Shown: piece by piece, positions 20,901 to 45,247 of the stretch
Position numbering within the stretch: position 1 is the first letter of the stretch
Layout of the letters: every line of letters starts with the position of its first letter
Assembly: GCF_003856835.1 (NCBI RefSeq)
Contig: NZ_CP034145.1
Span: forward strand, 2,294,001-2,358,000
Length of the DNA: 64,000 nt
Direction of reading: 5' to 3'
Source: Haloplanus aerogenes
GTDB taxonomy: Archaea > Halobacteriota > Halobacteria > Halobacteriales > Haloferacaceae
Translations under genes and position numbers: made by a program
Notes under the pieces: generated by a model
The model's input: only the letters and a program-made list of their open reading frames with translations
Told to the model about the DNA's origin: nothing
Database searches by the model: none

Positions 20901-23667
20901 CCTCGGCAGTGTTCCCCTCATCATCGGTCACTCGGCATCCGACGGCTTTTTGACCTGGTGAGGACCATTCGACTGAGATTTTCTCATTCTCAGTATTTTC
21001 CACAGCTCCGAACCACTCGTAGGCGGCTATCTCACCTGGCATGCCACGGTCCGGGTCAGTTGCCTCGGCAGTGTAGGTCACCTCGGTGTTGGTAGTTGTT
21101 TGTGTTGGGCCGGCAATCGAAACTGTGGGCTCCTGATCTTTGGTCGGTTCTTTACGCGATTTGACTTGGACGGTAAAGGAGTCCTGGGCCGTGTTGCCCT
21201 CATCGTCGGTTACTTCGCAGCTGATCGTTCGTTCCCCGGTCGACATCCAGCGGGGTGAGGTGGTTTTGGTGCCGGTGTTCGGGACCGGTCCGGACCAAGT
21301 ATATGACGCGATTGTTCCTCCGTCGGGATCCGTCTCATCGGCCGTATAAACTACACGCTCACCTTCGATGACTGTCTCCGGTCCCGCTATGGACACAGTT
21401 GGTTTCGCTTCGTGGCCCGACTCGTCTATCGATAATTCGACTACGGCCGTATCAGTCGCGCCGGCGTCATCGGTTACAGTAAGTTTTATCGAATAGGTGC
21501 CAGCCTGATCGAACGTATGCACCAGTCTCTGATTCGTACTTGTTTTGATGGTCGTCGATTCGGAAGCAGCTTTATCAATTAATTGCCATTCATGCCCGGA
21601 GATAGACCCATCGGAGTCGCGTGATTGACGCGAGTAGAAAGTGACTGTCTCGCCCAGTTCCGGGACCGCTGGCTCCACGTCAATGGAAGCTTGAGGGGGT
21701 TGATTTTGTACTGCGAGCTCCGTTTGCTCAGTTGTCGAATTTCCATCAGTGTCCGTTACTGTAAGGCGGATTGCATAGGTTCCGGCGGGAAACGTTCTGC
21801 TTACCGTTTCGCCGGTGGCCGTCCCGTGGCGCTCTTGATTTTCCGTGTCTGTGAACACCCATTCGTAGTTGGTAATCGACCCATCCGGATCGGTGGATGC
21901 AGTCGCATCGAATCGAATGTTTTCGCCGGGGTTCGGCGGATCGGGAGTAATGTCGAAACGTGCAACCGGAGCCTGTTCACCCGCAGCCGGGCTGATGGAG
22001 ACTTGTTTTGACGTTTTATCCGTCACTCCCTGCTCATTGGTGACCGTCAATTCGATCAGATATTCATCCGAATTATCGAACGTATATGTGATAGTTTCTC
22101 CACTGGTACTGTCGATGGGCTCAGGAGTGATCGTCTCCTCGCTTAGCCGATATATGTCCCATTCGTAACTGGAAATCGAACTGCCCGGAGCGGTTGATGT
22201 AGACGCATCCAGCGAGATGTCGTCATTGACTGAGGGCGATTTTGGAGATAGACTGAACCGTGCTTCGGGCGGATTCGCCACTGAGAGCGTTTTCGATTTC
22301 GTATCTGTTGCCCCATCCTGATCCGTGATCGTAAGTGAAACGGCGTATACTCCCTTGTCGAAGGATTTGGTCACAGTCTTTCCAGAATCGGATTCGGTTC
22401 GCTGAGAGCCTTGCTCGGTGAATTCCCAGTCGTAGCTATCGATTTTTCCATTGGGACTGGTGGACCCATCGGCTGTGAATCGAACTTTCTCTTCAGGTAA
22501 GGGCTCCGAAGGGGCCATCTCGAACGCCGCCGTTATCTCTCCACTACTCTCAGCGACATTAATGGTTTTTGCCGTGCTACCGGCGTTTCCACTCTCGTCG
22601 GTGACAGTCAGGCGGACGGGATACTTACCAGCGCGAGGGAACGTCGTTTTGAAGGTTTCCCCGGATCCCGAATCCAGTTGCTGTGATCCCATGTACGTTT
22701 GCCAGGAATATCGTAAACTCTCGCCTTCAGGATCGTACGAACCGCTTCCGTCAAACTGAATCTCCTCACCTGCTTTTGGAGTTTCTGCGGACCAGTCAAA
22801 CGCGGCAGTCGGTTTTGAGGCTTGTCTTTCCGGAGTTTCGTCGGGGGTTGTAATTTCTATTTCCTTTTCGGCTTCGGCTACAGATGAGCGCCCGATATGT
22901 CCGCCTGAGGCACTAATATCAAGTTCGACTGTTTCCCCAGGATCCATTAATAACATAAAGCGCACCCAGCCGCCCCCAGTTTTCACTGGCTCAGGATCTT
23001 CCTTTTCACTAACACTAAACACATTCCATATTTTCTTATCTGTTTCATCTAATATCTCCTCAATATCACTCAAATAATTATTATATTGCTGTATTTGATC
23101 CTTCACACTCAATATTGTATCCACATACGGGTGTGATCTAACCAGTTCTTCGGCTTCTGCTGCCAAGAGTTGCAATGTCCGATCTCGAATTTGAGACGCT
23201 TCGGATGGTATATCATGTGCTGGGTCGAATTGGGCAACGTAGTCGGGATCCTTTTTTGTAATAAATCCTCCTCGAAGTGATTCGGGATACACAACAGAAA
23301 TATCGAGTGATTGGCAAGAGTCCATATGAATCTGATCTTCCTCGTCAAACTCTTCCGCATACCTACGGAGGGCAGTACCTTGCGCGTATTCAGTCATTAC
23401 TGCCGCTGTTGTCGCATGTACGTACACCGGCACAGCGTATTCCGAGACAAAATCATTTAGCGGAACGGGGTCATATTTTACGATACTCAAAGTCGTATAC
23501 ACTTTCCCCCATAAGGTATCATATCGATAATGTTGACCTCTCAGTGTGTATCCCGCCTCGGCCAGCGTTCCGGTTTGTGAGAGGTGATCAGTCCCTCCAT
23601 CGGCGGATATAGCACGCTCCTCTACTTCGGACCAGTCCACATCGTTTGGCAGGTCTTTGTCTGTCAT
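17959..23667 (-). CDS. Giant PKD-repeat protein (1902 residues) without signal peptide
   Basis: An N-terminal unknown domain (about 1-280) is followed by about 16 PKD-like repeats of 85-95 residues. Each has the DPDG-x-I-x-x-Y-x-W turn and a VTLTVTD strand. Four consecutive repeats form a subtype (SIAGP ... YEWFG ... GCRVTDDEGNT). A Big_1-like Ig domain closes the protein (about 1795-1902). The start MTDKDLPNDVDW has no Sec or Tat leader, no membrane anchor and no PGF-CTERM, which is odd for a PKD protein. One repeat carries a Gly/Arg/Asp-rich insertion (20545-20725). It is 24 bases after an unknown 320-residue gene, probably one operon. PKD domains normally mediate surface adhesion. Confidence 0.88.
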   Translation of the reverse strand: MTDKDLPNDVDWSEVEERAISADGGTDHLSQTGTLAEAGYTLRGQHYRYDTLWGKVYTTLSIVKYDPVPLNDFVSEYAVPVYVHATTAAVMTEYAQGTALRRYAEEFDEEDQIHMDSCQSLDISVVYPESLRGGFITKKDPDYVAQFDPAHDIPSEASQIRDRTLQLLAAEAEELVRSHPYVDTILSVKDQIQQYNNYLSDIEEILDETDKKIWNVFSVSEKEDPEPVKTGGGWVRFMLLMDPGETVELDISASGGHIGRSSVAEAEKEIEITTPDETPERQASKPTAAFDWSAETPKAGEEIQFDGSGSYDPEGESLRYSWQTYMGSQQLDSGSGETFKTTFPRAGKYPVRLTVTDESGNAGSTAKTINVAESSGEITAAFEMAPSEPLPEEKVRFTADGSTSPNGKIDSYDWEFTEQGSQRTESDSGKTVTKSFDKGVYAVSLTITDQDGATDTKSKTLSVANPPEARFSLSPKSPSVNDDISLDASTSTAPGSSISSYEWDIYRLSEETITPEPIDSTSGETITYTFDNSDEYLIELTVTNEQGVTDKTSKQVSISPAAGEQAPVARFDITPDPPNPGENIRFDATASTDPDGSITNYEWVFTDTENQERHGTATGETVSRTFPAGTYAIRLTVTDTDGNSTTEQTELAVQNQPPQASIDVEPAVPELGETVTFYSRQSRDSDGSISGHEWQLIDKAASESTTIKTSTNQRLVHTFDQAGTYSIKLTVTDDAGATDTAVVELSIDESGHEAKPTVSIAGPETVIEGERVVYTADETDPDGGTIASYTWSGPVPNTGTKTTSPRWMSTGERTISCEVTDDEGNTAQDSFTVQVKSRKEPTKDQEPTVSIAGPTQTTTNTEVTYTAEATDPDRGMPGEIAAYEWFGAVENTENEKISVEWSSPGQKAVGCRVTDDEGNTAEASITVRVEGSGPKLSINGPTKVTVGSSVTYTAEAADSDGDSIASYEWFGTFEQTQKSSVQAMDMRTLRRGGGGGRGRRGRGGRDDGKRDRDGRDDGRRGRDGDGDDDEESDSPDPGSDTISVHWTSSGQKTIGCRVTDDDGNTAESTITVQVTADELPSVSVTGPKSVNIGSRVTYTADASDPDDGTISTYEWFGDVPDSGDDTTSVRWSSTGQRTVGCRVTDNEGNTVEDSISVAVRGNQPPNAAVDANVLDPAVDQSVQFNAGLSQDPDGTITRFDWEVLKEDDDDSTLVRKTTGETFSHEFEDPGSYSVQLTVTDDDGATDTDTLEVSVQEKKGALEPKIRTPDDLIVVGEEVVFTGETPGTPIDAYSWEVFDDGDPISEGAGKTFSVSFPYPGEFDIVLTVHQGNRNARTSASVSAVQAPTAKFKIKANSPPAPGDQVVFDASHSLDPDGEIRNYDWEFQDLSSATVYTASGETVKRTFNTGTYSVVLTVRDQDGLTDSHSRTLTITRPPVAEFTVSPKSPIAGEDLTVDASESYDPDGSITSYDWEFEKAGPNQSEFASGETVTRTFEKGKYEVTLSVTDEHGGTDTATKSINIEGGSPPTAQFDVTPDSPTTGEEITLDGSDSDDPDGTIEQYQWRVRRGTEVMRKGTGATFTFSGSPGTYEITLIVTDDSGQTDKAGRSVTVEDSQAPTAAFDITPAEPVAGEEVTLDASESDDPDGAIQEYSWEIRQKPFQNPELDSGEVITRTFSKGTYAVTLIVSDDDGKTGRTTETLTVAAGSKRPIAMFDVTPASPREGDDITVDAGDSEDPDGTIEEYQWRIERDATTVASGSGETFTFTADTDGTHDIEFTVTDNDGQMDTAQQSVSVASREGTVRLSAEQTQVSPMSSTTIEVTAEDADGDPVEGASVELSVSSQEVGGQTGELSRSSVTTDASGTASVTYTAPFASSSSDNIEATWKGASDTVIITTTLAGLFV
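20545..20725 (-). repeat. Low-complexity Gly/Arg/Asp insertion within one PKD repeat
   Basis: Inside the eighth PKD-like repeat the protein runs MDMRTLRRGGGGGRGRRGRGG, then repeats of RDDG/RDG, then an acidic DGDDDEESD before the PKD strand resumes (TISVHWTSSG). The DNA is a degenerate short tandem repeat based on GATGGGA-type units. It interrupts a loop where sister repeats have only about five residues, so it probably grew by slippage. Confidence 0.75.
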
Positions 23668-25418: not shown

Positions 25419-27194
25419 TCACAGGAGTCGAAGGTCGTCCTCAACCGAGACCTCGATCGGATTTCCGGCCTCGTCATGGGTTATGAAGTAGAGGTCGATA
25501 CGCTCCTCCCCGTCTTCACGCCGAAACACTGGCACGCAGGTCATCGTTTCAGACGACTGCTCATCACATTGCGTTTCGATCCGACGTCGCGTCCATTTTC
25601 CCTTCTGTTCGAGGTCGGATCGTGATCGCTGCTGGCTTGTCAGCGTATCGGCGGCGGCGTTGACCACCCGGAGCGAGAATTCGTGAACACTGCTGAAGTC
25701 GAAGGGCCCACCAGATTCGGTCAGGCGATCCAGATCCGACATATCGTGTTGGTCGAGGCACAATGCGTGTTCCTCGACGGCTCTGTAGACTGTGAGTGCA
25801 GGATACTGTTCGGCGAGTACGTCGTGCAGATAATCGCGAACACACGAGCGATATTCGTCGAGTGAGAACGCTGAGCTATTAGGCGAGATAACTTGCAGTT
25901 CGGCTCCGGTCTGGGCGATAGAGCGCGTACGTGGTTTGTTAAGGGGCGTTAGGAATCCCATTCGATCGGTCGTGAGAAGGTACGCGTAACTGAAGAGACG
26001 TGACCGGGAGCTACCGCTCTTCACTGGATCCTTCTCCTCTGCATAGTATTTCGAGTCGAGGACGGCTAGTGTCTCGTCCCCTTTTTCTACTGCGTGATCC
26101 GGTTGGTGATACACGTTCGACTCGTTCTCGAATGGCTGCACTGTTGGGGAACGTACGGCAGCAATGTTTTCAGTTTGGTCGAGTCGATCGAGGCTTTTGA
26201 TTACCTCCAACTCGTCTTCGATGACGACCTGTGAGTACTGTTCGAACAGCGATTCCATATTTAAAACGTAGTCGACGACTAACTCGCGGTTATTTTGCAT
26301 CGCTGGCGTCCCAAGCGAGGATGCCACGATGGCTTTGGCAACTTCGATGGCTTGCCGGTAGTAGTGGCGCTGTTTCGGGAGTTCGTGGAGCGAAAAGTGT
26401 CGATACTCGGGGATTCGTCGCCGACCGCTATCCACGCCGAGTCGCTCTAAGTGCCGAACCTCTTGATGCACCTGCGAGAAGATGTGGTAATAGGCCTGAT
26501 GATCGTACTTGTCCTCATACTGCTGGAAGAGGTGCAGCAAATGGATACCGGCGTAGTGGAGCAGCGAATTGGCGGGGTTGTCGTAGTCGACTTCTTTCAG
26601 TAGACAGTGTTGCTGGGCTCGTCCCTCGGCCTGATTCACCAGTGATCGCTCGATATCGATGACCCCACGGGGCTGTTCGAGATCTGCCCGCCGGGTTTCC
26701 AATTGGCGCACGAATCCGTTCCGATGGACGTCCTCAAGCCCGTTCAGGTAGTTGATGGCGAGAATCAGGAACACGTCTTGGAGATCGACATCCTCAGTTC
26801 GGAATTCGGAGAGTGGGATGCCGTGATACTCGATCGACTGCCTGCGACCATGCACCGCCAGCAGCATATCGAAAATGTGATTCCAGTCGATCTTCGGCTC
26901 GATGCGGAGCTTCGAGCGCGGTGTGAGGCTAATGATCCCGACATTGTCCCGGGCCGTCACGTACATCACCGGTTCGTCGAGACGAACCCGAACGACCCGA
27001 TACTCCTTCTCCCGGTCGTCGAGTGACTTCTGTGTCTTCACGAAGATATTGTCCGCCTCCTGCTCGAACGACGCTCGGCGGAGTTGCTCGCCGATGGATG
27101 GTGGACAACCTTCGATTCGGATCTCACCACGCTCCGATATGCTGAACGTCCCCGGCTCGTAAGTGTACGATTCGTCGGGATCGGCGATACTCAT
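25419..27194 (-). CDS. McrC-like nuclease subunit
   Basis: The 591-residue protein starts with a beta-rich McrB-binding region (about 60-100) and has the McrC-type helical core (ELVVDYVLNMESLFEQYSQVVIEDEL, 304-329). A PD-(D/E)xK nuclease site follows: PD at 365-366, then Asp380 and Lys382 in LDSKYY. An extra C-terminal part of about 170 residues goes beyond the usual McrC core. The start overlaps the stop of the McrB-like gene by 4 bases, so this is a two-gene McrBC-type system. These use GTP-driven McrB rings to translocate DNA and cut modified or foreign DNA. Confidence 0.85.
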   Translation of the reverse strand: MSIADPDESYTYEPGTFSISERGEIRIEGCPPSIGEQLRRASFEQEADNIFVKTQKSLDDREKEYRVVRVRLDEPVMYVTARDNVGIISLTPRSKLRIEPKIDWNHIFDMLLAVHGRRQSIEYHGIPLSEFRTEDVDLQDVFLILAINYLNGLEDVHRNGFVRQLETRRADLEQPRGVIDIERSLVNQAEGRAQQHCLLKEVDYDNPANSLLHYAGIHLLHLFQQYEDKYDHQAYYHIFSQVHQEVRHLERLGVDSGRRRIPEYRHFSLHELPKQRHYYRQAIEVAKAIVASSLGTPAMQNNRELVVDYVLNMESLFEQYSQVVIEDELEVIKSLDRLDQTENIAAVRSPTVQPFENESNVYHQPDHAVEKGDETLAVLDSKYYAEEKDPVKSGSSRSRLFSYAYLLTTDRMGFLTPLNKPRTRSIAQTGAELQVISPNSSAFSLDEYRSCVRDYLHDVLAEQYPALTVYRAVEEHALCLDQHDMSDLDRLTESGGPFDFSSVHEFSLRVVNAAADTLTSQQRSRSDLEQKGKWTRRRIETQCDEQSSETMTCVPVFRREDGEERIDLYFITHDEAGNPIEVSVEDDLRLL

Positions 27195-28435
27195 TGCTGA
27201 TACGAACCCATCTGTCGCTGTTCTGCTTGGAGTTCGCGGCTTGCGAGTTCAGTGGCCGGGGAGAGATCGAACGTTTCGAAGGATTTGTTGAGTGCCCGGT
27301 AATGCTCCTCGATTTGTTCGATTTGCGGGAAGGCCGCCGAATTCAGGAGTCGCGGAACGATGAAGGTACGGAAGGCCTGACCGACCGCCTCCCCGGGAGC
27401 ATCCATGTACAGACTCTCGTCTCGAAGTGCCTCACAGAGGAAGATCGTGACATCACGGTAGTGCATCGGTCCGAACCGCATGATCGGGCCACGCGATGCC
27501 TGTTCAGAGCCGTTGTTGATCCCGTTGTAATCCGCCTCGAAGAGTTCGAGTAACTCGTCGTTGCTGATCAGAGGGATATCGCCCAAATTGTCGTCGATCC
27601 AGCCTTCGAAGAGGGCCCGCCTATCTTCACCCTCGTACTCGTCGAGTTCGACCATCGCGAATCGACGTGTGATCGCGTTATCCAACTCGTTGACCGTGCG
27701 GTCGGACATATTCATCGTGCAGATGATGCTAACGTCCTCGTCTAATTCGATCGTCTCGCCGTCGTCGGTCTCTATTAGCGTCTGCTTACGATTCTCGATA
27801 GCCGTGTAGAGTGGGCCGAAGATTTGAGAGATATCCGCCCGAGTGATTTCGTCGAGAATAACGGCATACGGGATATCGAAGTCACGAGCGCACTTGACGC
27901 CTTCTGAGACAGCTCCAAGTTCAGTTTCGTACCCTAAAGAGCGAACGTCAGTTGACCCCGTGAGCTTTGGACCGATACCGCCAATGATGTCTTTGGCTGT
28001 CCACGAGGGCGTCGCAGTGTGGAGCGAAAATCCAACACAGTGTCGAAGCGCGAGTTGTTTTGCGAACGTCGTCTTTCCAGTACCTGTCGGTCCGTAGAGG
28101 ACGACTGGTTTTCCGGTCCGCAGTGACGTACGGGCGTTTCGCTCTACATCGTCCGGAACGAGTATCGTACTAGGTGTATCATCGCCACGGGTGATGACCG
28201 TTCGTTTCAGTTCCTGAGAAGCGTGCGGAGAACGGAGAACGGCCTGCCTGAGTGGGCCGATACCCTGGTCACCCTCGTGGTGGATATCCAATTTTTGTTC
28301 GCGAATGAGAAAGTTGAGAACGCTTTCGTCGGCCGCGTTCTCAATCGCTTCGACGACTTGCTCCGGCACGGCACGGAGGACTTCGAGATTCTCCTTGGCG
28401 TGATCCACTGTGTAGTCGCCGGCCGAGTTACTCAT
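27191..28435 (-). CDS. McrB-like AAA+ NTPase
   Basis: The 414-residue protein has a helical N-terminal part (1-95) and an AAA+ domain. It shows Walker A GPTGTGKT (115-122), Walker B VILDE (192-196), the McrB signature MN-x-x-D (MNMSDRTVNELDNAITRRF, from 241) and an Arg finger in ITRRF. The N-terminal DNA-reading domain typical of E. coli McrB is absent, so target recognition could depend on McrC's extra C-terminal region or an additional protein. Directly coupled to the McrC-like gene. Confidence 0.88.
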   Translation of the reverse strand: MSNSAGDYTVDHAKENLEVLRAVPEQVVEAIENAADESVLNFLIREQKLDIHHEGDQGIGPLRQAVLRSPHASQELKRTVITRGDDTPSTILVPDDVERNARTSLRTGKPVVLYGPTGTGKTTFAKQLALRHCVGFSLHTATPSWTAKDIIGGIGPKLTGSTDVRSLGYETELGAVSEGVKCARDFDIPYAVILDEITRADISQIFGPLYTAIENRKQTLIETDDGETIELDEDVSIICTMNMSDRTVNELDNAITRRFAMVELDEYEGEDRRALFEGWIDDNLGDIPLISNDELLELFEADYNGINNGSEQASRGPIMRFGPMHYRDVTIFLCEALRDESLYMDAPGEAVGQAFRTFIVPRLLNSAAFPQIEQIEEHYRALNKSFETFDLSPATELASRELQAEQRQMGSYQQ

Positions 28436-28777: not shown

Positions 28778-29492
28778 CGACGGCTGCCCGGTCGCGTTAA
28801 CTTTGGCGTGAGTTGTGCCGGACGGCGAGGGCTTTGAGCCACGATTCTGCTGTCTGCGGTTCGACATGGCTGAAACTAGTTGCGAACGATGAGGTTCGTC
28901 GTTCTATCTCCCAAAAGACACGTTCGATGGCATTCCGATTCCCATGTGAAATCATCTGGAATCGGTACCCGTCTTCGTCGAGGACGTTCACCAAGTAATC
29001 GGCGTCATCGACGAGAAATTCGACGCCATCTAGCCGATATCGTCGATGAAGTTCGGTCAGAAACCATCGCGTCGTCTGTTTCGTTGTCGCTGGAAACAGC
29101 CTGAAATGGAGGATTTCGTTCGTTTGGGGATCGACGGCACCGTACAGCCAGTAGTCGTCGCCGTTGATGCGGATCACTTTCTCGTCGACCGCAAGCTGAT
29201 CCGCACTCACCGTCGAAACCGGCTGTAGCTCGGCCTTGTGAACCCAGTTGTGAACCGCGACGTGACTGCGTTGGACTCCCAACTTATCGAGAAACTGACT
29301 GGCATCCCTCGTTGACATACCTGCGAGATGACACCGGATGCCCACTTGAATCGCCCACTCGGGAGTCCGATCTCGCTCCACAAACGACAAGTCGATCCAC
29401 TCGATACACTTGCTGAGGCGTTCGGATTCTGCCATAGACACTCAGAACTCGAGCGCCTCATCCTCTAACTTAACGCGACCGGCTGCCCTCGG
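28778..29492 (-). mobile_element. IS6-family insertion sequence (ISH15/ISH29-like group)
   Basis: About 0.7 kb bounded by inverted repeats: CCGGTCGCGTTAA at 28788-28800 and its complement TTAACGCGACCGG at 29470-29482, with weaker similarity outward. It holds one transposase gene. Single-ORF 0.7-0.8 kb elements of this type are common in haloarchaea. I saw no 8-bp target duplication, so the copy may have formed a cointegrate or recombined. Confidence 0.8.
28797..29441 (-). CDS. IS6-family transposase
   Basis: The 214-residue DDE transposase is intact. An N-terminal HTH-like region (MSTRDASQFLDKLGVQRSHVAVHNWVHK, 39-66) precedes the catalytic domain, which has LAVDEKVIRINGDDYWLYGAVD (first Asp about 86), a second Asp in FLVDDADYLV and the Glu in NAIERVFWEIE. 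The length is normal for haloarchaeal members. The C-terminus reaches into the left inverted repeat. Confidence 0.9.
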   Translation of the reverse strand: MSMAESERLSKCIEWIDLSFVERDRTPEWAIQVGIRCHLAGMSTRDASQFLDKLGVQRSHVAVHNWVHKAELQPVSTVSADQLAVDEKVIRINGDDYWLYGAVDPQTNEILHFRLFPATTKQTTRWFLTELHRRYRLDGVEFLVDDADYLVNVLDEDGYRFQMISHGNRNAIERVFWEIERRTSSFATSFSHVEPQTAESWLKALAVRHNSRQS

Positions 29493-29581
29493 TAAAATTT
29501 TATTATTCACCATTCTGGAAATTTAGTTGACGAGTCAAGACGCGGTTGAGACGACAATAAAATCCACTGATCCCCAAGACA

Positions 29582-30100
29582 ATGGATAATCGCGAACTAC
29601 AGAAGTTGACAGCCAAGAAAATGTTGCAGATCGGTTATACGGATAAAATATTCTTCAAAATGTCCCGGTATTATCATGTGCTTGGTATGGTACTTGATGC
29701 GTTCGTTGTTATTATCACTGCGCTCTTGACCGCCGTTCTCTATCTCCGGAATACGCCCGAGACAGTAAACATCGGTCTCGCCATAATGGCATCAATTATT
29801 TCCTTTTTCAATACATTTGTCAATTTCGAAAAACGGGCCCTGGAATTCGAAAATGCAGGGGATGCCTACAACAGTCTTCTCAAGGAATTCCGAGATTTCT
29901 ACAGTCTTGAGTTAACGGGCCAGGACAACACGAATGGGAAGGCAATGGAACGTTTCGAACAATTGAGTAGCAGACAACGCGAATTAAACGAACTCACACC
30001 CGCCACAAGTGATCTCATTGCTCGGAGAGTGAAACACGAAGAGGTTATGCAGAGCATCGAAGTACAGGAAGGCGAGCTTAGACCTCTTCTCGAGGATTGA
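29582..30100 (+). CDS. SLATT-type two-helix membrane protein
   Basis: The 172-residue protein has two transmembrane helices (about 33-53 and 62-80), then the helical signature FEKRALEFENAGDAYNSLLKEFRDF (about 80-105) and a charged C-terminus. This matches the SLATT family, 2TM proteins found with nucleotide-second-messenger and other conflict systems, where they are thought to open membrane pores. No SMODS or SLOG partner is adjacent. It stands alone between the IS6 element and the primase-like gene, so it may act alone or have lost a partner. Confidence 0.7.
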   Translation: MDNRELQKLTAKKMLQIGYTDKIFFKMSRYYHVLGMVLDAFVVIITALLTAVLYLRNTPETVNIGLAIMASIISFFNTFVNFEKRALEFENAGDAYNSLLKEFRDFYSLELTGQDNTNGKAMERFEQLSSRQRELNELTPATSDLIARRVKHEEVMQSIEVQEGELRPLLED

Positions 30101-30399
30101 CGTCGGATTATTGTTACTTTTGGAATTCCTACTGAGGGTTTGTCGGATTCCACTGACTGCCGAATACCACGATGATGTTCGGTACGCCGTGTTTTAGCAC
30201 GACTTGGGCACAGTTGTGCGATCCAGATCGTGAAGCCTTGTCCGACAGTGAAGACGCACGTTTATTGCTTTCGTGACAACTTTCAGAGGTACGACCATTC
30301 TCGGACACTGAACGTGAGGGTGAAATTTCGCCTCCTCGGGGGCTCTGCGGTTGTTCCGTTAACTAATTTTGGTATAAGGATCTGTGATTCGTGCCGAGT
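30101..30399. other. Convergent intergenic region
   Basis: No gene supported; convergent ends of the SLATT-type and primase-like genes lie on either side. No strong hairpin seen. Confidence 0.3.
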
Positions 30400-30999
30400 T
30401 CAATCCGTTCCATAGAATAGCGTCGTCCACTCGATATCCATGTCCTCATATATTCGATCTAGCCACGTACCATTGTTAATGGCGTGTCTTGATGTCCCAG
30501 CGATGTGATCCTGAGTAACCACAATAAAGTATTTGTCATAGATTTCTGCGTCTATTTCGTCATCCTCAGCGGTCCATCCTTGGTTGGGAAGTGAGCCACG
30601 GAAAATCAGATGTAGGCCCGTTTTTGAGTAGGAGAGTTCCGCATAGGTCTGGGCACGACGCACGTATTTCCATACTTCCTCATCGATCCGGCCAGTGGTT
30701 GGATCGATACAGTTGTCAATGTCTACGACGACGAAATCGTCCCGTTCACGGCTGATAACAACTCCCACCCCTTCCAATTCATCATGTGATGAGGCAGTCT
30801 CAACGGCTTCGTCGTAGCTGTACCAGTTTGAAATGTCCTTGTAAGTGACTGTGCGAACACTCCCGGCTTCGATTTCAGCCGGTTTTTTTCTTACGTGACC
30901 GTCCTCATCAACCGACGCCCAGCACACCCACCGATCGAGTTTCTTGAGATTATGCAACAAGCCATTGGGCTTTGCTCCTGAGGGTTCGAGGGATCGCAT
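30400..30999 (-). CDS. Primase-polymerase (AEP)-like domain protein
   Basis: From ATG 30999 the protein is 199 residues and consists of one domain. Visible AEP motifs are VVVDIDNC (DxD, 93-95), SYSKTGLHLIF (S/T..GxH, His130) and EIYDKYFIVVT (third motif region, about 152-162). The opening RWVCWASVDEDG...KKPAEI and TYKDISNWYSYDEAV match the N-terminal prim-pol domain of plasmid and phage primases. The helicase domain usually fused to it is absent. It lies 55 bases after the EVE-AAA gene in the same direction and is likely co-transcribed, suggesting joint action on DNA. Confidence 0.8.
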   Translation of the reverse strand: MRSLEPSGAKPNGLLHNLKKLDRWVCWASVDEDGHVRKKPAEIEAGSVRTVTYKDISNWYSYDEAVETASSHDELEGVGVVISRERDDFVVVDIDNCIDPTTGRIDEEVWKYVRRAQTYAELSYSKTGLHLIFRGSLPNQGWTAEDDEIDAEIYDKYFIVVTQDHIAGTSRHAINNGTWLDRIYEDMDIEWTTLFYGTD

Positions 31000-31054
31000 G
31001 TGAATCAGACTGAACGTTCCTCCCTTGTTGTTCGTCGTATTGTTGTGTCGTTCA

Positions 31055-33178
31055 TTATGCTCTGTACGACCTGATTTGGGCGGCTGTGGCTTTGAAACCG
31101 AGTATCTCGGCGACCGTGGCGAAGGAGTCTCGACAGGCCATACATTGTTGTACACCTTGTTCTTCATTTACTCTGTTCAGACGCATGAATATGGTCGGGT
31201 TGAAATACGCCGCAACTGCTTGGTCGACGACCTCCCAGTCTGACTGCTTCGGGAACAGCCAATTGTATACAACGACGAATTTGATGGCGTCAACCAATAG
31301 TTCTCGTCCGAGAGAAACGTCGTTGTCCTCCCCAAGTTTCCACGCGTAATGGCTGAGAGCGTCTATAAAGTCGTAGTTTGTTTCGATCGGGAGACTGACC
31401 GATGATAGTGCGGCGTCCAAGGCTGCTTCAGCGTCAAACAGTTCCGCAAGCGCGGGAATCGAAAGATGCGTGTCACGTTCTATATTCGTTGGTAGATCGG
31501 TCAACTTGGAGAGTACTGCCTGCTCTGCGCTGAAGCGTAGTCGTTGATAATCCTGTTTGTGATGCAAATGTCGCAAGATTGGATAATCGCTGTTGTGCGG
31601 TTGATCATCGTTCAGATGAGTGGAGACATGTAAGGGAGCAAATTGTCGCGAAGTGCTGTAAAGTTCCGGAAGCCCGGCAGCATCGACGACATCCATCGTC
31701 GCAATCACACGAAACGCCATCGGAACGGGTAACAATTCGTCCCCAACACTGATTCGGCGATCCACACGGCGTTCTATCTCCAAGAGTGTCAATACGTTCC
31801 CGAGCTGGGGTATCGGGACAGTCTCAAAGTTCTCTATTAACATCCAGACCGGATGTTCGTGTTCGTCTAGCGAGGCATAACAAGAGTTTACAGCTCGTAT
31901 GAACGGTCCAACGCTCTCGTTATCACTCGGCGTTGCCAACAATTGCTGGTCATTTAGATCCGGTGTCGCCGTTACTGTCAGGAGATCTGTACAGATTGCC
32001 TGCCCAAGTCGCCGAGCGATAGAGTTCTTTTTTGTACCGGTTGGTCCGTATAATAGCAAGCTTCGACCGGCAATGAGGTGGGCTAGGCCGTACTGATAGA
32101 GTTCGGGTCGCAGCTCGCCAACTGTTGCCTCCTGCAAAATCACCGCCCCTGGCTCGTCTGCCTCCTGAAGAAGTTCCGTGTCAGGAGTTGGTTGCTGATC
32201 GTTTTTGAGGGTGAGTATATCGGTAATTGGCGCTTCGTCAGGTTCTGGGAGTAACTCGGGCTTGGTTTTGTCGGTACCTTCCCCACTCCTTTCGGGTGTG
32301 TCATCAGGCGCCTGAACGGAGCCGTCCTCAGCAACCTCAACATAGGTGCCCTCCTCATGTAGAGCGCGTAGTATTTCGTTGGCCTGTTCTGAACTGAACC
32401 AGTCCTGCGTGATGTCGAGTGGGAATTTTTCTTTGGGGAGTCTGTATAGTGTGTCCCACGATATCCTCACCTGATACGGATACTGTTCGCCGGCTGCTTC
32501 TGGGATGAGGGCCTCTGCAACGTCGGATTCGGCCGTGAACGGCCCGTAAATCAATTGATCCTCGAAATCGTACAGAACGAGTCGATCACCCTTCGACACG
32601 TCCAATTTCTGTGGCCGTCCGAACACCTTATATGAAAAGTACAGTTGAAATGTTTTGTCATCACACAAAAATTTCCATATCGCTTCTTCAGAGCCGTCGA
32701 TATCGTCTTCCGTGTCGCCCTCGGTAGTTCCGTCGTGTGTTGCTTGATCCTCTGCACCTGCCATCGAGAGAATAGCCGTGTATTCGTCCTCGGAAAGTTC
32801 AAACAGCGATCCTCTCGCTCTCAGGTTAATTGGGGATGAATCAGCCAGTATTGGATCCTCTTTGATATCGTTCCAATCTACCGCATCGAGCGCTCGCTCG
32901 TATTCAATAACAATTCCATCATCTCCAGTCTCCAATCCAGATACGATTTTACCTTCGCTGGTAACTTTTCTCCTGGGTGATGATGTATATATTAGAACTC
33001 TATCACCAGGTTTGGCCTTCTCGAAGGCCGAGAATTTTCGCCGTTTGTTCTCGTTATTATTGTACGCCTGATATCGGATTTGGTCGCCCTTCTCAGCGTC
33101 CTCGGGATCCCAATAATCAGGATTAGCTGTGAGCCAAAAATAATTAGACGGACTTTCCTCTGAAATATCCGCGTTCAT
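31055..33178 (-). CDS. EVE domain - DCD-like domain - McrB-type AAA protein with degenerate motifs
   Basis: The protein is 707 residues from ATG 33178. Residues 11-140 are an EVE (PUA-like) domain (NYFWLTANPDYW...GDRVLIYTSSP), a reader of modified bases. Residues about 165-265 resemble a DCD/YTH-like reader (KTFQLYFSYKVFGRPQKL, DRLVLYDFEDQLIYGPF). A linker follows, then an McrB-like AAA domain from about 350. Walker A is GPTGTKKNS (378-386), with Lys for the second Gly and Asn for Thr, and Walker B is WMLIENFE (445-452), lacking the DE pair. ATP/GTP hydrolysis is therefore doubtful. No McrC follows; the primase-like gene does. Confidence 0.8.
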   Translation of the reverse strand: MNADISEESPSNYFWLTANPDYWDPEDAEKGDQIRYQAYNNNENKRRKFSAFEKAKPGDRVLIYTSSPRRKVTSEGKIVSGLETGDDGIVIEYERALDAVDWNDIKEDPILADSSPINLRARGSLFELSEDEYTAILSMAGAEDQATHDGTTEGDTEDDIDGSEEAIWKFLCDDKTFQLYFSYKVFGRPQKLDVSKGDRLVLYDFEDQLIYGPFTAESDVAEALIPEAAGEQYPYQVRISWDTLYRLPKEKFPLDITQDWFSSEQANEILRALHEEGTYVEVAEDGSVQAPDDTPERSGEGTDKTKPELLPEPDEAPITDILTLKNDQQPTPDTELLQEADEPGAVILQEATVGELRPELYQYGLAHLIAGRSLLLYGPTGTKKNSIARRLGQAICTDLLTVTATPDLNDQQLLATPSDNESVGPFIRAVNSCYASLDEHEHPVWMLIENFETVPIPQLGNVLTLLEIERRVDRRISVGDELLPVPMAFRVIATMDVVDAAGLPELYSTSRQFAPLHVSTHLNDDQPHNSDYPILRHLHHKQDYQRLRFSAEQAVLSKLTDLPTNIERDTHLSIPALAELFDAEAALDAALSSVSLPIETNYDFIDALSHYAWKLGEDNDVSLGRELLVDAIKFVVVYNWLFPKQSDWEVVDQAVAAYFNPTIFMRLNRVNEEQGVQQCMACRDSFATVAEILGFKATAAQIRSYRA

Positions 33179-33196
33179 GCTAAGTTGTAATACCAA

Positions 33197-33936
33197 ACTG
33201 TACTGATGGCTTCGAACTAATAACTTGTTGGAAAAGAATAATTTGCGCTCTCGACCAGCAGGCCGATGTTATATCACAGCGAAGCGTTCGGTTCAGGCGG
33301 TGTCATCAGGCACCCTGCTGACTTGTCTTCCCGCATCTCACCGATTACAAAGGCCACGTGAGTGATATACAACGATCTCACCAGTTTCCGAAACAAGTAC
33401 CTGACTACTAGGAGGCTTGTGGTTGCGCACGCAACGATCGGAGACCGCATGATCGAAGCGAGCGGTGGAGGACCAGCGTATCAAGTCCTCCTGAGGAAGC
33501 GAGTACGGAGCGGAAAATGGGGCGGTAGAGCCTGGGACAGTCAGGCGTCCAATAAAAAGACGAGTTCGCACTGACCTAAGCCGTACACAGCGTGAAGCGA
33601 GTGCGGGGTGCCAGACTCGCGGCTGATTGGTTTCCGTTCGTTCCGATACAGAGGTGAACGGGCTCCGTACGCGCTGAGCACACGGAAGCCGTTAGCCAAC
33701 AGCCCCGCAGCGATATCTGCGGTACGCCGAGCTCCGGAGTCTCCGTTGGCAAGGAACACCGGACTTTGAATCCGGAGGTCGCTGGTTCGATTCTGAACTC
33801 TGAGTTGGGGAAGCCACTCTCCCAGGGATCGTACACATCGAAATCGTCGTAGTCCCAGATGACGAGTTTGCTGTCCAGCGTGGCCTCCCAGTTCAGTCTC
33901 CCAAACAGGAGATCAGTACGCCGTCGTCCTGGTCAG
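33197..33936. other. Gene-poor stretch with tRNA remnant
   Basis: About 740 bases without a supported gene: upstream region of the EVE gene, then a mosaic of short open frames lacking consistent codon bias, then a tRNA-Gln fragment (annotated separately). A minus frame (33541-33759) reads ...SPLYRNERKPISRESGTPHSLHAVYGLG, which looks protein-like but is not identified. Confidence 0.35.
33745..33797 (+). tRNA. tRNA-Gln(TTG) fragment (possible attachment site)
   Basis: The anticodon arm is intact: CCGGA (33759-33763), loop CTTTGAA with anticodon TTG (33766-33768), TCCGG (33771-33775). A five-base variable loop and GCTGGTTCGATTC of the T arm follow. The T stem then fails (GCTGG facing CTGAA), and the acceptor stem and most of the D arm are absent. 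It is not a functional tRNA. A 3'-part of a tRNA gene left in accessory DNA is the usual trace of site-specific integration. Confidence 0.7.
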
Positions 33937-34242
33937 ATGAACCGGTGTCTCGACTGTCTCCCGCATACGGAAGAGTTATACGTCGGTGTCGGTGGGCGGA
34001 TAGGCGAAGAGATCCGGGCCGAGGTGGCGGATCAATTGAACGAGCGACTCCCCAGTTCGAAGGAGATTCGCTATCGCTACAGCGAGATGAAAAACAGGGG
34101 GCGGAAGGAGTCGAATATCGTGAACCGAATCACCGAATCCGGAAGCGACGGGTTACAGATCGAAATGACGCCCAAAACGTCGTACAACTACTGGAAGCGA
34201 GTCGCCCGGTCGGTTCGAGACGTCTACATCAAGTTACTATAG
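33937..34242 (+). CDS. Small hypothetical protein (possibly truncated)
   Basis: This 101-residue frame from ATG 33937 has a basic, helical C-terminal half (KEIRYRYSEMKNRGRKES, SYNYWKRVARSVRDVYIKLL) that could bind nucleic acid. The sequence before the start in a neighbouring frame is also protein-like (PDDEFAVQRGLPVQSPKQE), hinting at a frameshifted longer gene that begins near the tRNA remnant. Not recognised. Confidence 0.35.
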   Translation: MNRCLDCLPHTEELYVGVGGRIGEEIRAEVADQLNERLPSSKEIRYRYSEMKNRGRKESNIVNRITESGSDGLQIEMTPKTSYNYWKRVARSVRDVYIKLL

Positions 34243-36050: not shown

Positions 36051-37058
36051 GTGGTGACTGTTGAGGATCTATCCCCCAGCGGGGCGCTGCCCGGACCGAT
36101 GATCGTCGAGGTGACGGCTGTCGACTGGGATGCCGGTTCCTCACGGCGTGCAATAGTCGCTCTCGTTGATCACGCTGGAAACGAGTTCAAACTCGTCGAT
36201 TACGACGGCGCCGAACTAACAATCGACTGGAAGCCGAACCACCGCTATCGCATCTCCGGATGTAATGTCAACAAGGGAGGAGCGGACTATCCCGTCGCGT
36301 TGGAACCGAGCAAGCGGACACGCGTCGAGTCGCTCGGACCGAGCGAGGATCATACCTCACTCCTGGTCGTGGGAGATACGCACGTCGGTCGGACGAACCA
36401 CCCGAAAATGGAGGCGAGGATCGACCCTGTCGAAGCATTCGCCACCGCTGTCGACTACGGAATCGAATGCGGCGTCGACGCCGTCGTCCACGTCGGGGAT
36501 ATCTTTCACGAATCGGCATCGGAGGGGGAGGCGACTGCCGTCGATCAGCGTGTGTTCGCCCTGTTGGAGGACGCCTCGATTCCCTTCTACTACGTCCGTG
36601 GGAATCACACCGCTGAACAGGGTGAGGGGGTACTGACGAAACGTCCCCTCGTCTCGAACCTCGATACGGGGGGCGAGCGGATCGGCTCCGACGTGCGTGT
36701 GTTTGGCATCGATCATGCCGAGGAGGGTGAACTTCCCTGGAAGAGGCTCTCCTTTCCTAGCCGAGTGAGCGAACCGATCTCCATTCTGGTTGTTCACCAG
36801 ACCCTGCGTCAGCTATCTGGCCCGACAGCCAAGAGCGTCGACCTCGATCGTATTCAGCGACGGTTCGGCGGCCAGTTCGATCTCGTTGTCTCGGGTCACC
36901 ACCACGACGCGACGATGGAAACCCGGAGCGGGACGACCGTGATGTACACCGGCGCGGCCGAACGAATGAGTAAGAATCAGGATTCTACCGATAGAGTCGC
37001 CTGGCTCGTGACGTCAGCAGGATCCTCGGTAGCGATTGAGCGATACGATATCCCCTGA
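36051..37058 (+). CDS. Mre11/SbcD-like metallophosphoesterase
   Basis: This 335-residue protein has an N-terminal beta-rich domain (about 15-95, OB-like: VEVTAVDWD, HRYRISGCNVNKGG). The calcineurin-like phosphoesterase domain follows: GDTHVGR (Asp109, His111), HVGDIFHES (Asp150), RGNHT (Asn185, His186), VVHQT and SGHHHDA. This is the motif set of Mre11/SbcD nucleases, and an added OB-like domain would suit nucleic-acid binding. No Rad50 partner lies next to it. It probably acts in DNA repair or in restriction of an element. Confidence 0.85.
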   Translation: MVTVEDLSPSGALPGPMIVEVTAVDWDAGSSRRAIVALVDHAGNEFKLVDYDGAELTIDWKPNHRYRISGCNVNKGGADYPVALEPSKRTRVESLGPSEDHTSLLVVGDTHVGRTNHPKMEARIDPVEAFATAVDYGIECGVDAVVHVGDIFHESASEGEATAVDQRVFALLEDASIPFYYVRGNHTAEQGEGVLTKRPLVSNLDTGGERIGSDVRVFGIDHAEEGELPWKRLSFPSRVSEPISILVVHQTLRQLSGPTAKSVDLDRIQRRFGGQFDLVVSGHHHDATMETRSGTTVMYTGAAERMSKNQDSTDRVAWLVTSAGSSVAIERYDIP

Positions 37059-37265
37059 TCGAGTTACACTGCGAGGCTTTCAGCGGTACTGATTCCAGAC
37101 AATCTACATTAGATAGTTCGCATCACGGACCCCACCCAGAGGTGGTTGGCTGGTCAGGCGTTACGCGAATTTTTCACAGACAAGGGAGTGAAGAGTTCGA
37201 GAGCAGTCGAGTGGTCGTCCCGGCTGGCGCCCGCGGTACCGAACGCTCTTCACCCAGACCCAAAC

Positions 37266-38768
37266 ATGGCTACTGACCAGCACACGCAGCGACGCGGACG
37301 GAGCACCGACTCGACGGACGACGGCATTCCAGCAGCCGACCACGCTCACGTGCCGGCACTCATCGCCGAAGAATTCACACTCCGGTTCGCCGGACTCGCG
37401 GACGTCGATGCGGAGGCGGTCCCCGGAAACGATGAGCGTTCACCGGACGCCTGGTGTGGAGACGACGGTGTGACCTCACTCGAGCAGGCCATCGAGGTGC
37501 TGCCACGAGCCAGTTCCGGGGAACTCTGGGCAACCAACGAGTTCGTTGAAACCGACGGCGCCGTCGACATCACCGCTATCGAATCGGTTCACGGGCTCGA
37601 TACGGATGCGCTCGAACAGACGGCCGGACGTTCGCTGGACGAGCTAGCCGCCCAGACCGACGCCGAGCCGATCGTCCCCATCGAGGATCATCAAGACATC
37701 ATCGACCGGCGACGGAAGGCGCTGTGTGCGCTGGGCTACGATGTCCGGTTCCGCTGGCAGATTGCCTCCGACCGCTACTCGATCATCAATCCGCAAGAAG
37801 CCTACCAGCCGATCACCACTGCACTCCAGCGACGGGGTGAAACCGGGGCATTCGGCTGGCTGAGCTACCGCGACTGGGGCGGGCTGCTCAAGCTGTTCAT
37901 CGTCTGTCCCGGCCTCAAGCAGATCGTCAGCCCGCCTGAGGAGGCGGTCGACATCGACGACGAGAACGATATCGATGCCCTCGGGGGAAGTCGCGTTCGG
38001 GAGGCCGAAGCGCCGGATTCAGATTCAGACGGAGATCTAGTGGTGTACGGCGGCTTCGAGACGGGGTACGACTTCCGGGGAACGCAGACGCTGTGGGCGA
38101 AGCCGATCCTGTACTTCCCCGATAGCGAAACGATCGTTCCGGATACGGGTCAGCGGTACACGCGCCGGCACTACGGACAGGCGACCAACGCCGATCACGA
38201 GCGCGCGAACGACCGGGTACCCATCAGCGAGTGGTGGGCGTCGATCTACGACGACGTCGAGACGCGAATGGTCGATGTCGACGAAACACTCCGGCGGGCC
38301 CGGGCGATCACCTACGATTTCGAGGTGCTTCCGTTCTCGGCTGCCGACTGCTACCGATACTGGGGCATCGCCGACACGTACGCCGCTGTCGCGGCTGACC
38401 GAGCGACAAGTCTCGCCAATCCCACGTCCCGACCGACGGTGTTCAACCTGCAGCTGTCGTTGTTGATTGCGCTGCTGGAGGAGTACACCGGGTCGTGGGC
38501 CTCGAACACATACCAGGAGTATCTCGAGGTGGCTGGCGAATTGCTCCGGACGCCGGCGATGATGATCCAACTGGCCATGCAGGAGCACGACAGGCAGGTC
38601 GAAGACGCTGCCGAACGGATCCTCGCAGAGGGCCAGCAGACGTTGAGCGACGCCCTCGAGGACATCGTCGAGATCCCGGGCATCGACGTCGACACCGAGG
38701 CCGCGCTCTCGGACCGGGAGGCTCAGCGACTCCACGACCAAGTCCAGCAGCAGCTGGACGACATCTGA
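37266..38768 (+). CDS. Large hypothetical plasmid-type protein
   Basis: From ATG 37266 the protein is 500 residues and acidic. It has an alpha/beta region about 130-270 (RFRWQIASDRYSIINPQEAYQP, WGGLLKLFIVCPGLKQI, GYDFRGTQTLWAKPI) that resembles the DUF932-type phage/plasmid proteins. A helical second half follows, ending in a coiled-coil-like tail (DREAQRLHDQVQQQL). Such proteins are found on plasmids and prophages, often near recombination genes. Function unknown. Confidence 0.65.
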   Translation: MATDQHTQRRGRSTDSTDDGIPAADHAHVPALIAEEFTLRFAGLADVDAEAVPGNDERSPDAWCGDDGVTSLEQAIEVLPRASSGELWATNEFVETDGAVDITAIESVHGLDTDALEQTAGRSLDELAAQTDAEPIVPIEDHQDIIDRRRKALCALGYDVRFRWQIASDRYSIINPQEAYQPITTALQRRGETGAFGWLSYRDWGGLLKLFIVCPGLKQIVSPPEEAVDIDDENDIDALGGSRVREAEAPDSDSDGDLVVYGGFETGYDFRGTQTLWAKPILYFPDSETIVPDTGQRYTRRHYGQATNADHERANDRVPISEWWASIYDDVETRMVDVDETLRRARAITYDFEVLPFSAADCYRYWGIADTYAAVAADRATSLANPTSRPTVFNLQLSLLIALLEEYTGSWASNTYQEYLEVAGELLRTPAMMIQLAMQEHDRQVEDAAERILAEGQQTLSDALEDIVEIPGIDVDTEAALSDREAQRLHDQVQQQLDDI

Positions 38769-38924
38769 TTTGAGCAGACTATTGAAATCATCACCCAGTT
38801 ATGCATTTTGGTGACCGTACTCAATACACAGCACGGCACGCCAATACTGGTCTGTTCGAACTGTGCAGTGGAGAAGTTTGTTTCTCACTATACTTTATTA
38901 ACCGGACGTGGTTGTCCAGCAACG

Positions 38925-39752
38925 ATGAAAGTTCTTTCATGGAACGTTGATGGAACGTTCCCACCGCAGGGCTCACCAGCTCAGATTACTAATCAAATAA
39001 GGTGGTTAGACTCACTTGAAACTCAGCCGGAACTCCTCTTACTGCAGGAGGTCAACCCAAATCGACGTGATCTCTGGCAGGAATTGTTGACCGACCAGCT
39101 TGGGTATGAGACTGTGCGAGATACCCTCGATATCGCGGTAGAACAAGGCAATAGCAACGGCCACATCACTGCTATACAGAGCGAATTAGATCTCTTAGAG
39201 ACCACTACTGGTATTGAATTGAATGAGACCACTACACGAACTGAGTCAGATCGTTCGACAGCGTATCCCGAAAAACTTCTCGTTACCGGTATCGAATACG
39301 GAAATACAACTATCGAGGTCTGGAACGTCAGGGCGGTTCCTGGCAGCAGCTACCCCGAAGAAAAACTCACGATCCTTGAACTCGCCTACGAGTACATCGA
39401 AGAAGCCGATGAGAAACTTCGTATCCTCGCTGGTGATCTGAACACCCCGCAGCGGGAACTTGCTGACGGCCAAGCCATCACGTACGGCTACCAACGAGAC
39501 GCTGATCTCCAGCAACGAGGAGTCACCGCGGAACTCAAGATTCTCAAAGGCTTAGGACACTTCGGGATGATTGATGTCTTCCGGGCCCAACACGGGTACG
39601 GCGACATCGACTCGCTCTCGGTGAGTCATGATGGTCGACGAATCGATCACCTCTTCGCATCGGAAGACCTCTCTCCGGCCGACTGCTGGTATTCAGAAAC
39701 TGGAGCCACCCACAGCGACCACGCACCAGTCCTCGCTGTCTTCGATATTTAA
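38925..39752 (+). CDS. Endonuclease/exonuclease/phosphatase (EEP) family protein
   Basis: The protein is 275 residues from ATG 38925. The EEP motifs are complete: LSWNVDG (Asn near 7), LLQEVN (catalytic Glu near 44), LAGDLNTP (Asp and Asn near 170), RIDHLFAS and the final SDHAPVLAVF (Asp-His). Family members cut DNA, RNA or phosphodiester-linked lipids; the short length and lack of a signal peptide suggest an intracellular nuclease. The leading 39 codons of the longer open frame are Cys-rich and not part of the fold, so I use the internal ATG. Confidence 0.88.
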   Translation: MKVLSWNVDGTFPPQGSPAQITNQIRWLDSLETQPELLLLQEVNPNRRDLWQELLTDQLGYETVRDTLDIAVEQGNSNGHITAIQSELDLLETTTGIELNETTTRTESDRSTAYPEKLLVTGIEYGNTTIEVWNVRAVPGSSYPEEKLTILELAYEYIEEADEKLRILAGDLNTPQRELADGQAITYGYQRDADLQQRGVTAELKILKGLGHFGMIDVFRAQHGYGDIDSLSVSHDGRRIDHLFASEDLSPADCWYSETGATHSDHAPVLAVFDI

Positions 39753-39960
39753 TGGATGCATCACGTCCATGGTCATCAACATATACTGATTATACGCTCT
39801 GCATACAACAGAACAATTCTGTCAGATACTAAGCGATTCATCCGAGGTATTTGACGGTAACACGGGCGCGACATGCGTCCGATTTCGCTCTTCCAATCGA
39901 GCGACAGAGGTCCCGAGGATGGCGGTCTGTGCGCCCCGACTCGGTCTCTCCAGAACGACC

Positions 39961-41529: not shown

Positions 41530-41562
41530 AAGATTGATATTTGAGCGAGGGGAACTTCAGGC

Positions 41563-43185: not shown

Positions 43186-44105
43186 TTATTTCTCGAGCGG
43201 TTCCTTGACCACCTTGCCGTCTCAACCACGTAGTTAAACTGGTCGAAGCTTCTCTCACCTTCTTCTACCGTCGCATAATCGGCTCTGGTTCTTTCTTCGT
43301 CCGGGAAAAGATGAAGTCTTGCTGAATGGTATCCGTCTGAATCCTCTACAGCACTTTCACATTCTGGATTATCGTCGAGCATCGGATTTTCTCCGTCTAG
43401 AAGATGTTCTATCTGCCATCCCATCGAACCTAGTATGTCGTCGGTACTGGACTCTCCTACTCCGCGTTGAACGAGAATATAGTTCTCTCCAGGGGCTACT
43501 GCGACTTTTCGAGGACCTCTCTTCGCTTGGAAAGTGCCTGTGTAGACCGGAAGACCCTCTATTTCGGTGTTTAAGCTCAAATCAGGCCCCGAACTTATAC
43601 TTTCGACGTCAGGAACTCCGTTTTCGAGATGGAAGAGGCCTGGTTGAGATCTAGCTTCAAAATATTTTGTTACTTTGTCCCAGAGACCCATTGCATCTAG
43701 TACTCTTCCGTTAACGCTCGGATCCACCGTCATGCCGTTTTGCTCGTATCCCTTCCTGTCCAGAACTGAGCCAGTGTACGAATCATTTGAATCCCACCCT
43801 GGGAGCTCGATATCGGGGTTTACAAGATCGTCGAGGACAAACATTCCTCTGAGCATCTCGGAGTTGGAGGGATCGTCCGAGATGGGAAACTCTACTGAAG
43901 GGGAGGAGCCTTCTGCTGTTGGCTCTCTAGAGGTATCTTCCACATCTGTCGTCCGTTCATTTCCTTCACCGTCTTCTCCACCTTCTTCCTGTCCGCCTTT
44001 TGAAGAACATCCCGCCAGACCGGCCGCAGATCCTCCTGCCACTGTTTTTATCATGTTTCTTCTTGTTATTCCATTTTCGCCGGATCCTCCTGACATAAAT
44101 TCCAA
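43182..44105 (-). CDS. Tat lipoprotein of the foreign block
   Basis: The 307-residue protein carries a Tat leader (ITRRNMIKTVAGGSAAGLAGC) with lipobox LAGC at about residue 33. An acidic Gly/Glu/Thr-rich linker (about 35-75) precedes a globular domain (about 80-300) of unknown type (LPVYTGTFQAKRGPRKVAVAPGENYILVQRGVG). Codon use is AGA/ATA-rich like the facing gene. It overlaps that gene tail to tail by 4 bases. Its start could be Met4 (44096). A surface or extracellular role is likely. Confidence 0.7.
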   Translation of the reverse strand: MEFMSGGSGENGITRRNMIKTVAGGSAAGLAGCSSKGGQEEGGEDGEGNERTTDVEDTSREPTAEGSSPSVEFPISDDPSNSEMLRGMFVLDDLVNPDIELPGWDSNDSYTGSVLDRKGYEQNGMTVDPSVNGRVLDAMGLWDKVTKYFEARSQPGLFHLENGVPDVESISSGPDLSLNTEIEGLPVYTGTFQAKRGPRKVAVAPGENYILVQRGVGESSTDDILGSMGWQIEHLLDGENPMLDDNPECESAVEDSDGYHSARLHLFPDEERTRADYATVEEGERSFDQFNYVVETARWSRNRSRNN

Positions 44106-44192
44106 ATACCAACCAAACTTTTTTTATTGTTACGGTTAGGTGGTCACCTGCTACTCCGGGATACTTAATTCAGGAGTCCGAAAAGGTCTACG

Positions 44193-44333: not shown

Positions 44334-44418
44334 CACCTAGCGACCGTTCAGCCTCGGGGAATTCCGTACATAGGCAATCCGTGACGTTGGAACGCCCGAA
44401 CTCGTTTACCAACCCCAC

Positions 44419-44778: not shown

Positions 44779-44781
44779 ACG

Positions 44782-45048: not shown

Positions 45049-45088
45049 GCATATTCATATCTTATTCATACTAAAAAGCCCTTCGGGC

Positions 45089-45150: not shown

Positions 45151-45247
45151 CAAGCTTTCGAAGAACTCCCCGATAGTGGGGTATTTCGCGCCAGCGATTT
45201 ACCAGCCGCAAGGGAGCGAAGAGGTCCGATACCTCCCGTTCCCCATC

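Follow-up and report, generated by a model that had tools for sequence, protein, structure and literature searches.

The pairing of a nucleic-acid synthase with a SLATT membrane protein is already known as a kind, with CBASS cyclases pairing with SLATT. UG17 reverse transcriptases pair with SLATT as well (82%; PMC8934634), and phage defence by DRT10, which consists of a UG17 reverse transcriptase (RT), SLATT and an ncRNA, needs both the RT and SLATT (PMC12632851). A different set of relatives is found among McrB proteins. Type IV McrBC systems can carry EVE or DCD readers, and the published EVE/DCD and McrBC censuses mention neither a primase nor SLATT (PMC7641849, PMC11090510), while PcdA of Staphylococcus, a degenerate EVE-EVE-McrB protein with eroded Walker motifs and no McrC, is still weakly active as an NTPase and has a role in the cell (PMC10602043).

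The locus described here is found on a chromosome contig of 3.46 Mb from the haloarchaeon Haloplanus aerogenes, within the 64,000-nucleotide stretch that we analysed as a whole and refer to as the window, and it resembles each of these systems in part. As in DRT10, a nucleic-acid-synthesising enzyme stands beside a SLATT membrane protein, but this enzyme is a primase-polymerase (PrimPol) of the AEP NrS-1 fold rather than a UG17 RT, the setting is haloarchaeal, and an McrB-type sensor is added; a search for Rfam matches in 29000-34000 returned none, although the DRT10 RNA may be missing from Rfam. The SLATT_4 effector recalls CBASS systems with a SLATT/2TM effector, with cyclase and PrimPol holding the same place beside haloarchaeal SLATT, except that the window locus has a DNA primase-polymerase instead of a CD-NTase. 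The first gene shares its domain ancestry with type IV McrBC, and the sister locus in another genome (G129; genomes and loci are given here as G and L numbers) has McrB together with McrC, whereas the window lacks the NTPase motifs and McrC and has PrimPol added. PcdA is likewise an orphan McrB-family protein, but it has a cell-division role, retains the Walker B aspartate and works with other partners, and the window protein has DCD as its second reader. The catalytic fold and motifs of the PrimPol are those of the NrS-1 phage primase-polymerase (PDB 6a9w; PMC8718748), minus the helix-bundle domain and the helicase part. Finally, a divergent lone PrimPol lies directly upstream of homologues of the DISARM genes drmA-drmB-drmC in G056, while the window has no drm genes. 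What differs from the known synthase-SLATT pairs is the PrimPol as synthase, and a literature search found no paper linking PrimPol to SLATT. The features are as follows.

31055-33178, minus strand: EVE-DCD-AAA protein, 707 aa, McrB-derived, motor-dead (Pfam domains; homology to the DCD-McrB of G129)
32762-33145, minus strand: EVE domain (PF01878, residues 18-145 of the 713-aa frame; model resembles 2gbs and 1zce)
32399-32671, minus strand: DCD domain (PF10539, residues 176-266)
32024-32047, minus strand: degenerate Walker A, GPTGTKKN (sequence and alignment)
31829-31846, minus strand: degenerate Walker B, WMLIEN in place of WL[IL]IDE (sequence and alignment)
30400-30999, minus strand: lone NrS-1-type Prim/Pol domain, 199 aa, without helix-bundle domain (profile, PHROGs, fold, alignment with G129)
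30715-30723, minus strand: PrimPol motif I, DID, with D93 and D95 (alignment)
30610-30612, minus strand: PrimPol motif II histidine, H130 of SxSxxGxH (alignment)
29582-30100, plus strand: SLATT 2-TM effector-type gene, tail-to-tail with PrimPol (NCBIfam SLATT_4; PADLOC; nearest to the SLATT of G353)
27191-28435, minus strand: separate intact McrB, 414 aa, outside the proposed system (homologues in L084 and L085 without an EVE-DCD partner)
25419-27194, minus strand: separate McrC, partner of 27191-28435, outside the proposed system (PF10117, E 1.8e-16)

The 707-aa frame is present in the sequence with its start ATG at 33178, and the protein gives Pfam matches above the curated cut-offs to EVE (E 1.9e-7), Dev_Cell_Death (7.3e-10) and AAA_5 (1.3e-6). 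An earlier note, made from the sequence alone, had described an McrB-like AAA protein with two putative N-terminal readers of modified bases, and both parts of this description held: the AAA part matches AAA_5 and is homologous to the DCD-McrB of G129, and the two readers are EVE and, as the second domain, DCD. Structure prediction, which the note had suggested for the AAA part, gave a full-length model of moderate quality (mean pLDDT 65, with the AAA part mostly at about 70-90), and we used its fold matches solely as confirmation of the EVE class and the McrB/MoxR class. Aligned with its homologues, the window protein reads GPTGTKKN at Walker A (GPPG[TS]GKT in homologues) and MLIENFE at Walker B (L[IL]IDELNRAN), and the sensor/arginine region is also gone (SRQFAP vs. 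FRRRFAF). Across 47 near-invariant positions, defined as those conserved in 11 or all 12 of the other sequences, 20 are changed in the window protein, compared with 0-5 in each of the 12 homologues. Judged by this alignment, the NTPase motifs of the AAA part are lost, and the Walker residues are as dead as the note had supposed. Set against type IV McrBC, the gene thus has the reader domains (EVE and DCD, putative) without NTPase motifs and without an operonic McrC, and the gene that follows is PrimPol rather than McrC, again as noted earlier.

The best homologue of the EVE-DCD-AAA protein is the DCD-McrB of G129 (34% over residues 179-698), whose motifs are intact (GPPGSGKT, LLIDELNRAN) and which is followed by an McrC-like nuclease and then by a PrimPol orthologue; the nuclease carries a PD...DAK motif and matches the McrC genes beside other homologues. 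At six further AAA homologue loci (L070, L072-L076), we found intact motifs and an McrC-like gene, with no lone PrimPol. Since homologues are intact and accompanied by McrC, including those of the PrimPol-bearing G129, the window form is derived: on present sequence comparison, it is a derived McrBC-PrimPol locus from which the motor residues and McrC have been lost. The earlier note had described base readers plus a polymerase without nuclease as the layout; our comparison does not support this as the basic arrangement, as all homologues examined have undamaged Walker motifs together with an McrC-like gene, and the nuclease-free, dead-AAA state is seen in the window genome only. That note had also named two observations that would count against it, and these diverged: the two genes do occur together elsewhere, an EVE-DCD-AAA homologue and PrimPol being found jointly in G129, but intact homologues beside McrC exist as well. 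As a separate observation among these relatives, the Haloarcula halophila plasmid (G367) holds two copies of an McrBC locus with its neighbours on one contig (L070 and L071), of which one is intact and the other broken by stops.

A derived form may also be a decaying one, in which a former McrBC-PrimPol system like that of G129 lost its McrC, its McrB drifted, and nothing functional is left. Such decay would explain why McrC and all NTPase signatures are gone, with the G129 McrC unmatched anywhere in the window genome (in a search run without a positive control), and it would fit the transposase close by (28797-29441) and the visibly broken state of related copies elsewhere, such as a frameshift in G350. 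However, all 707 codons are still open despite the fully replaced motifs, the EVE, DCD and PrimPol motifs are kept, and PcdA exemplifies such a protein remaining functional (PMC10602043); we consider decay unlikely, though a serious contender.

The second gene had been read as a one-domain AEP primase-like protein with intact DxD and GxH motifs, and our results bear this out. The PrimPol family profile matches phage NrS-1 primase chains at about 1e-18 and phrog primases (PHROGs) at 9e-28, and the AlphaFold model of the protein (pLDDT 85.5) matches NrS-1 6a9w with a TM of 0.72 (E 1.9e-11); in the alignment, both DxD (D93, D95) and SxSxxGxH (H130) are intact. The window PrimPol is 46% identical to its G129 orthologue, and because of the alignment with the latter its start is probably the ATG at 30999 rather than at 31167, which leaves 55 nt between the EVE-DCD-AAA gene and PrimPol. 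The protein stops at about residue 199 with no added domain, while a long form in the same genome extends further. In NrS-1, helix-bundle mutations weaken primer synthesis while primer extension stays comparable (PMC8718748), and as the window PrimPol lacks this domain altogether, it would be more likely to extend or tail existing ends than to prime de novo.

We searched several hundred Halobacteria genomes with the lone PrimPol, and eight genomes stood apart from the long plasmid primases: that of the window, G129, G121, G006, G353, G461, G350 and G195. Five matches had E <= 1e-84 and the partial frame of G350 6e-41, with long plasmid proteins following from 2e-35; G461 was matched at 1.5e-75 in a separate search, and the PrimPol piece of G195 ends at a contig end. 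In our tree, the six full-length lone PrimPols form one clade (starred), in which those of the window and G129 are sisters. When we searched contigs with a three-sequence PrimPol alignment, Halobonum alone was found among haloarchaea, along with multi-domain bacterial primases; the relatives belong to the class Halobacteria, and the genome of one is Candidatus Halobonum tyrrellensis. Scans of viral contigs with PrimPol and SLATT yielded no relative linked to the PrimPol-SLATT system. A further candidate, a lone PrimPol in G216 beside a P-loop ATPase with GTTGSGKS, was rejected because the tree places it within the long plasmid family. We also observed that the motif III glutamate is replaced by Gly/Ser in the PrimPols of G121, G006, G461 and G350, with an acid two residues earlier, and the C-terminal PrimPol piece of G195 shows the same shift (loci L078, L079, L130, L136, L143).

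In seven of these eight genomes (G121, G006, G353, G350, G461, G195 and the window), the gene adjacent to the lone PrimPol is SLATT. Five of the pairs are arranged tail-to-tail, the two genes either overlapping by 4 nt or leaving 0-4 nt between them; the G353 pair is head-to-head (divergent) and 80 nt apart, and the window pair is convergent, with the genes on opposite strands and 299 nt between them. Two of the seven are damaged: in G350, PrimPol is frameshifted and split over two frames, and in G461, the C-terminal SLATT frame alone was found, at the contig start. SLATT was present within ±1.5 kb at none of 49 loci (about 47 distinct) of long plasmid PrimPols, defined by a PrimPol frame >270 aa. 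Against this background, it is extremely improbable that the window PrimPol is a plasmid primase domain of the usual sort that a mobile element left behind among coincidental neighbours. Long homologues are indeed common on haloarchaeal plasmids, and the A+T content of the region exceeds that of the window as a whole, but in the tree the lone PrimPols branch apart from the plasmid family, and their linkage to SLATT is not shared by that family. The exception among the eight is G129, whose PrimPol has no SLATT in the 14 kb examined. A small multi-TM protein is encoded 307 bp downstream of this PrimPol on the same strand (L069, 4154-4606), and might take the place of SLATT as membrane partner. 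BLAST of the intergenic regions for a common ncRNA gave as its sole matches flanks common to G006 and G461 on the PrimPol side and to G006 and G195 on the SLATT side. Judged by this flanking DNA, the insertion site appears to be common to the three genomes on one side or both, so that fewer than seven independent events underlie the seven SLATT pairs. We regard the PrimPol-SLATT gene association as well supported.

The window SLATT scores 57.6 bits with NCBIfam SLATT_4 (cut-off 55) and gives a PADLOC 2TM effector match at 4e-14, while the Pfam SLATT_4 model stays below threshold in the window genome; in the tree, the closest sequence to the window SLATT is that of G353, which is likewise PrimPol-linked. 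No SMODS or cyclase was found among the scanned neighbouring genes of the window locus. SLATT_4 is rare, occurring in 9 of 292 Halobacteria, and stands beside PrimPol in four of the nine (G006, G121, G195, G056), with a cyclase-like gene at the SLATT_4 loci of four others (a confirmed SMODS in G223, G040 and G258, and in G114 a gene recognised by sequence similarity) and a weak partial match in the ninth, G112. Two haloarchaeal plasmid SLATT genes come after a CBASS cyclase, and those haloarchaeal SLATT genes without a PrimPol neighbour whose context was read adjoin SMODS/CBASS cyclases. PrimPol-linked and CBASS-linked SLATTs fall on the two sides of one branch of the tree (support 90/93). The two genes listed in the earlier note stand, but it overlooked the SLATT gene nearby, which is the partner that best predicts the role of PrimPol, and the McrB-McrC pair at 25419-28435 (minus strand).

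A similar association was found with DISARM genes in G056, where locus L149 (G056:C2, 920-9097) has a divergent lone PrimPol of 191 aa directly upstream of homologues of drmA (1e-42), drmB (2e-26) and drmC (5e-10) on the same strand, with a SLATT gene divergent to PrimPol and a small reader-like gene beyond. The tree position of this PrimPol is uncertain because of its long branch, and L149 is apparently a DISARM variant extended by a PrimPol-SLATT module. Together, the G129, window and G056 loci indicate three settings for lone PrimPols, namely McrBC, a dead McrB and DISARM-like genes, in most cases along with SLATT.

We therefore propose a haloarchaeal defence module composed of a lone PrimPol, a SLATT membrane effector and an attached sensor, here a motor-less McrB with EVE and DCD, and we hold this reading to be evenly poised between right and wrong. 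It draws on the linkage of the lone PrimPol clade to SLATT, on the rarity of SLATT_4, on the separation of PrimPol-linked from CBASS-linked SLATTs in the tree, and on coupling to different sensors, PrimPol being found with McrB-McrC in G129 and its divergent form, with SLATT, beside drmABC in G056. Counting against it are the lack of SLATT near the G129 PrimPol, the opposite strand and 299-bp distance of the window SLATT, the two damaged pairs and the partial dependence among pairs, the shifted motif III acid, the restriction of the dead-AAA form to one genome, and the negative scans of viral contigs. The precedents of DRT10 and CBASS, together with PcdA, lead us to an order from reader to PrimPol product to SLATT. 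From what is known of their families, EVE and DCD would bind modified or foreign DNA; the AAA part, its motifs lost, would serve as an oligomeric or recruitment scaffold rather than a translocase; PrimPol, given its fold and motifs, may extend 3' ends or make a DNA or nucleotide product there; and this product, or its loss on infection, could switch the SLATT pore by analogy with DRT10 and CBASS, halting the infected cell. Such an arrangement would point to an antiviral alarm, so far unreported, that is set off by DNA synthesis rather than by DNA cutting.

The last of these steps might also run in the opposite sense, with PrimPol or its DNA silencing SLATT and viral interference with PrimPol freeing the toxin. 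For DRT10, cDNA drops on infection and the authors propose SLATT neutralisation (PMC12632851), and most PrimPol-SLATT pairs are tail-to-tail rather than in one operon, as might suit such a scheme; yet the retention of PrimPol without SLATT in G129 would be odd for a pure antidote, and the links of PrimPol to McrB and to DISARM point to a sensor that acts upstream of it, leaving an antidote role decidedly improbable. More broadly, and with chances that we put slightly short of even, the module with PrimPol as signal maker may represent an archaeal immune class in which a primase-polymerase replaces the CBASS cyclase or DRT10 RT beside SLATT and plugs into McrBC, a motor-dead McrB reader or DISARM. 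If true, PrimPol would become the third nucleic-acid-making enzyme to partner SLATT pores, beside cyclases and reverse transcriptases, plasmid-type primases would gain an immune role, a general archaeal rule of synthesis as alarm and pore as executioner would be supported, and the window protein would likely join PcdA as a second example of an McrB that has lost motor and nuclease.

The McrB-McrC pair at 25419-28435 (minus strand) is complete and unrelated to the EVE-DCD-AAA gene. A mixed ring, with the EVE-DCD-AAA protein as reader subunit for this intact pair, would make sense of a 414-aa McrB that has no recognised DNA-reading domain and lies on the same strand, about 2.6 kb away. We nevertheless judge this very unlikely, as the same McrB-McrC family occurs in G085 and G135 without any EVE-DCD protein, the dead McrB is closest to another McrB branch (that of G129), and a transposase and SLATT intervene. 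Copies of the 25419-28435 family in L084 and L085 are flanked by a divergent protein of ~620 aa with a P-loop, GPDG[AT]GK[ST]. The transposase, at 28797-29441 and close to SLATT, is of the IS240-type DDE class, with similar ones in loci L081 and L085. We also observed a cluster on one strand at 36051-47875, comprising genes for a metallophosphoesterase, a 540-aa unknown protein, Exo_endo_phos, a MoxR-type AAA_5 and vWA, which might form another conflict system dependent on NTPs, as well as a 1902-aa PKD-repeat protein at 17959-23667 that is probably surface-exposed.
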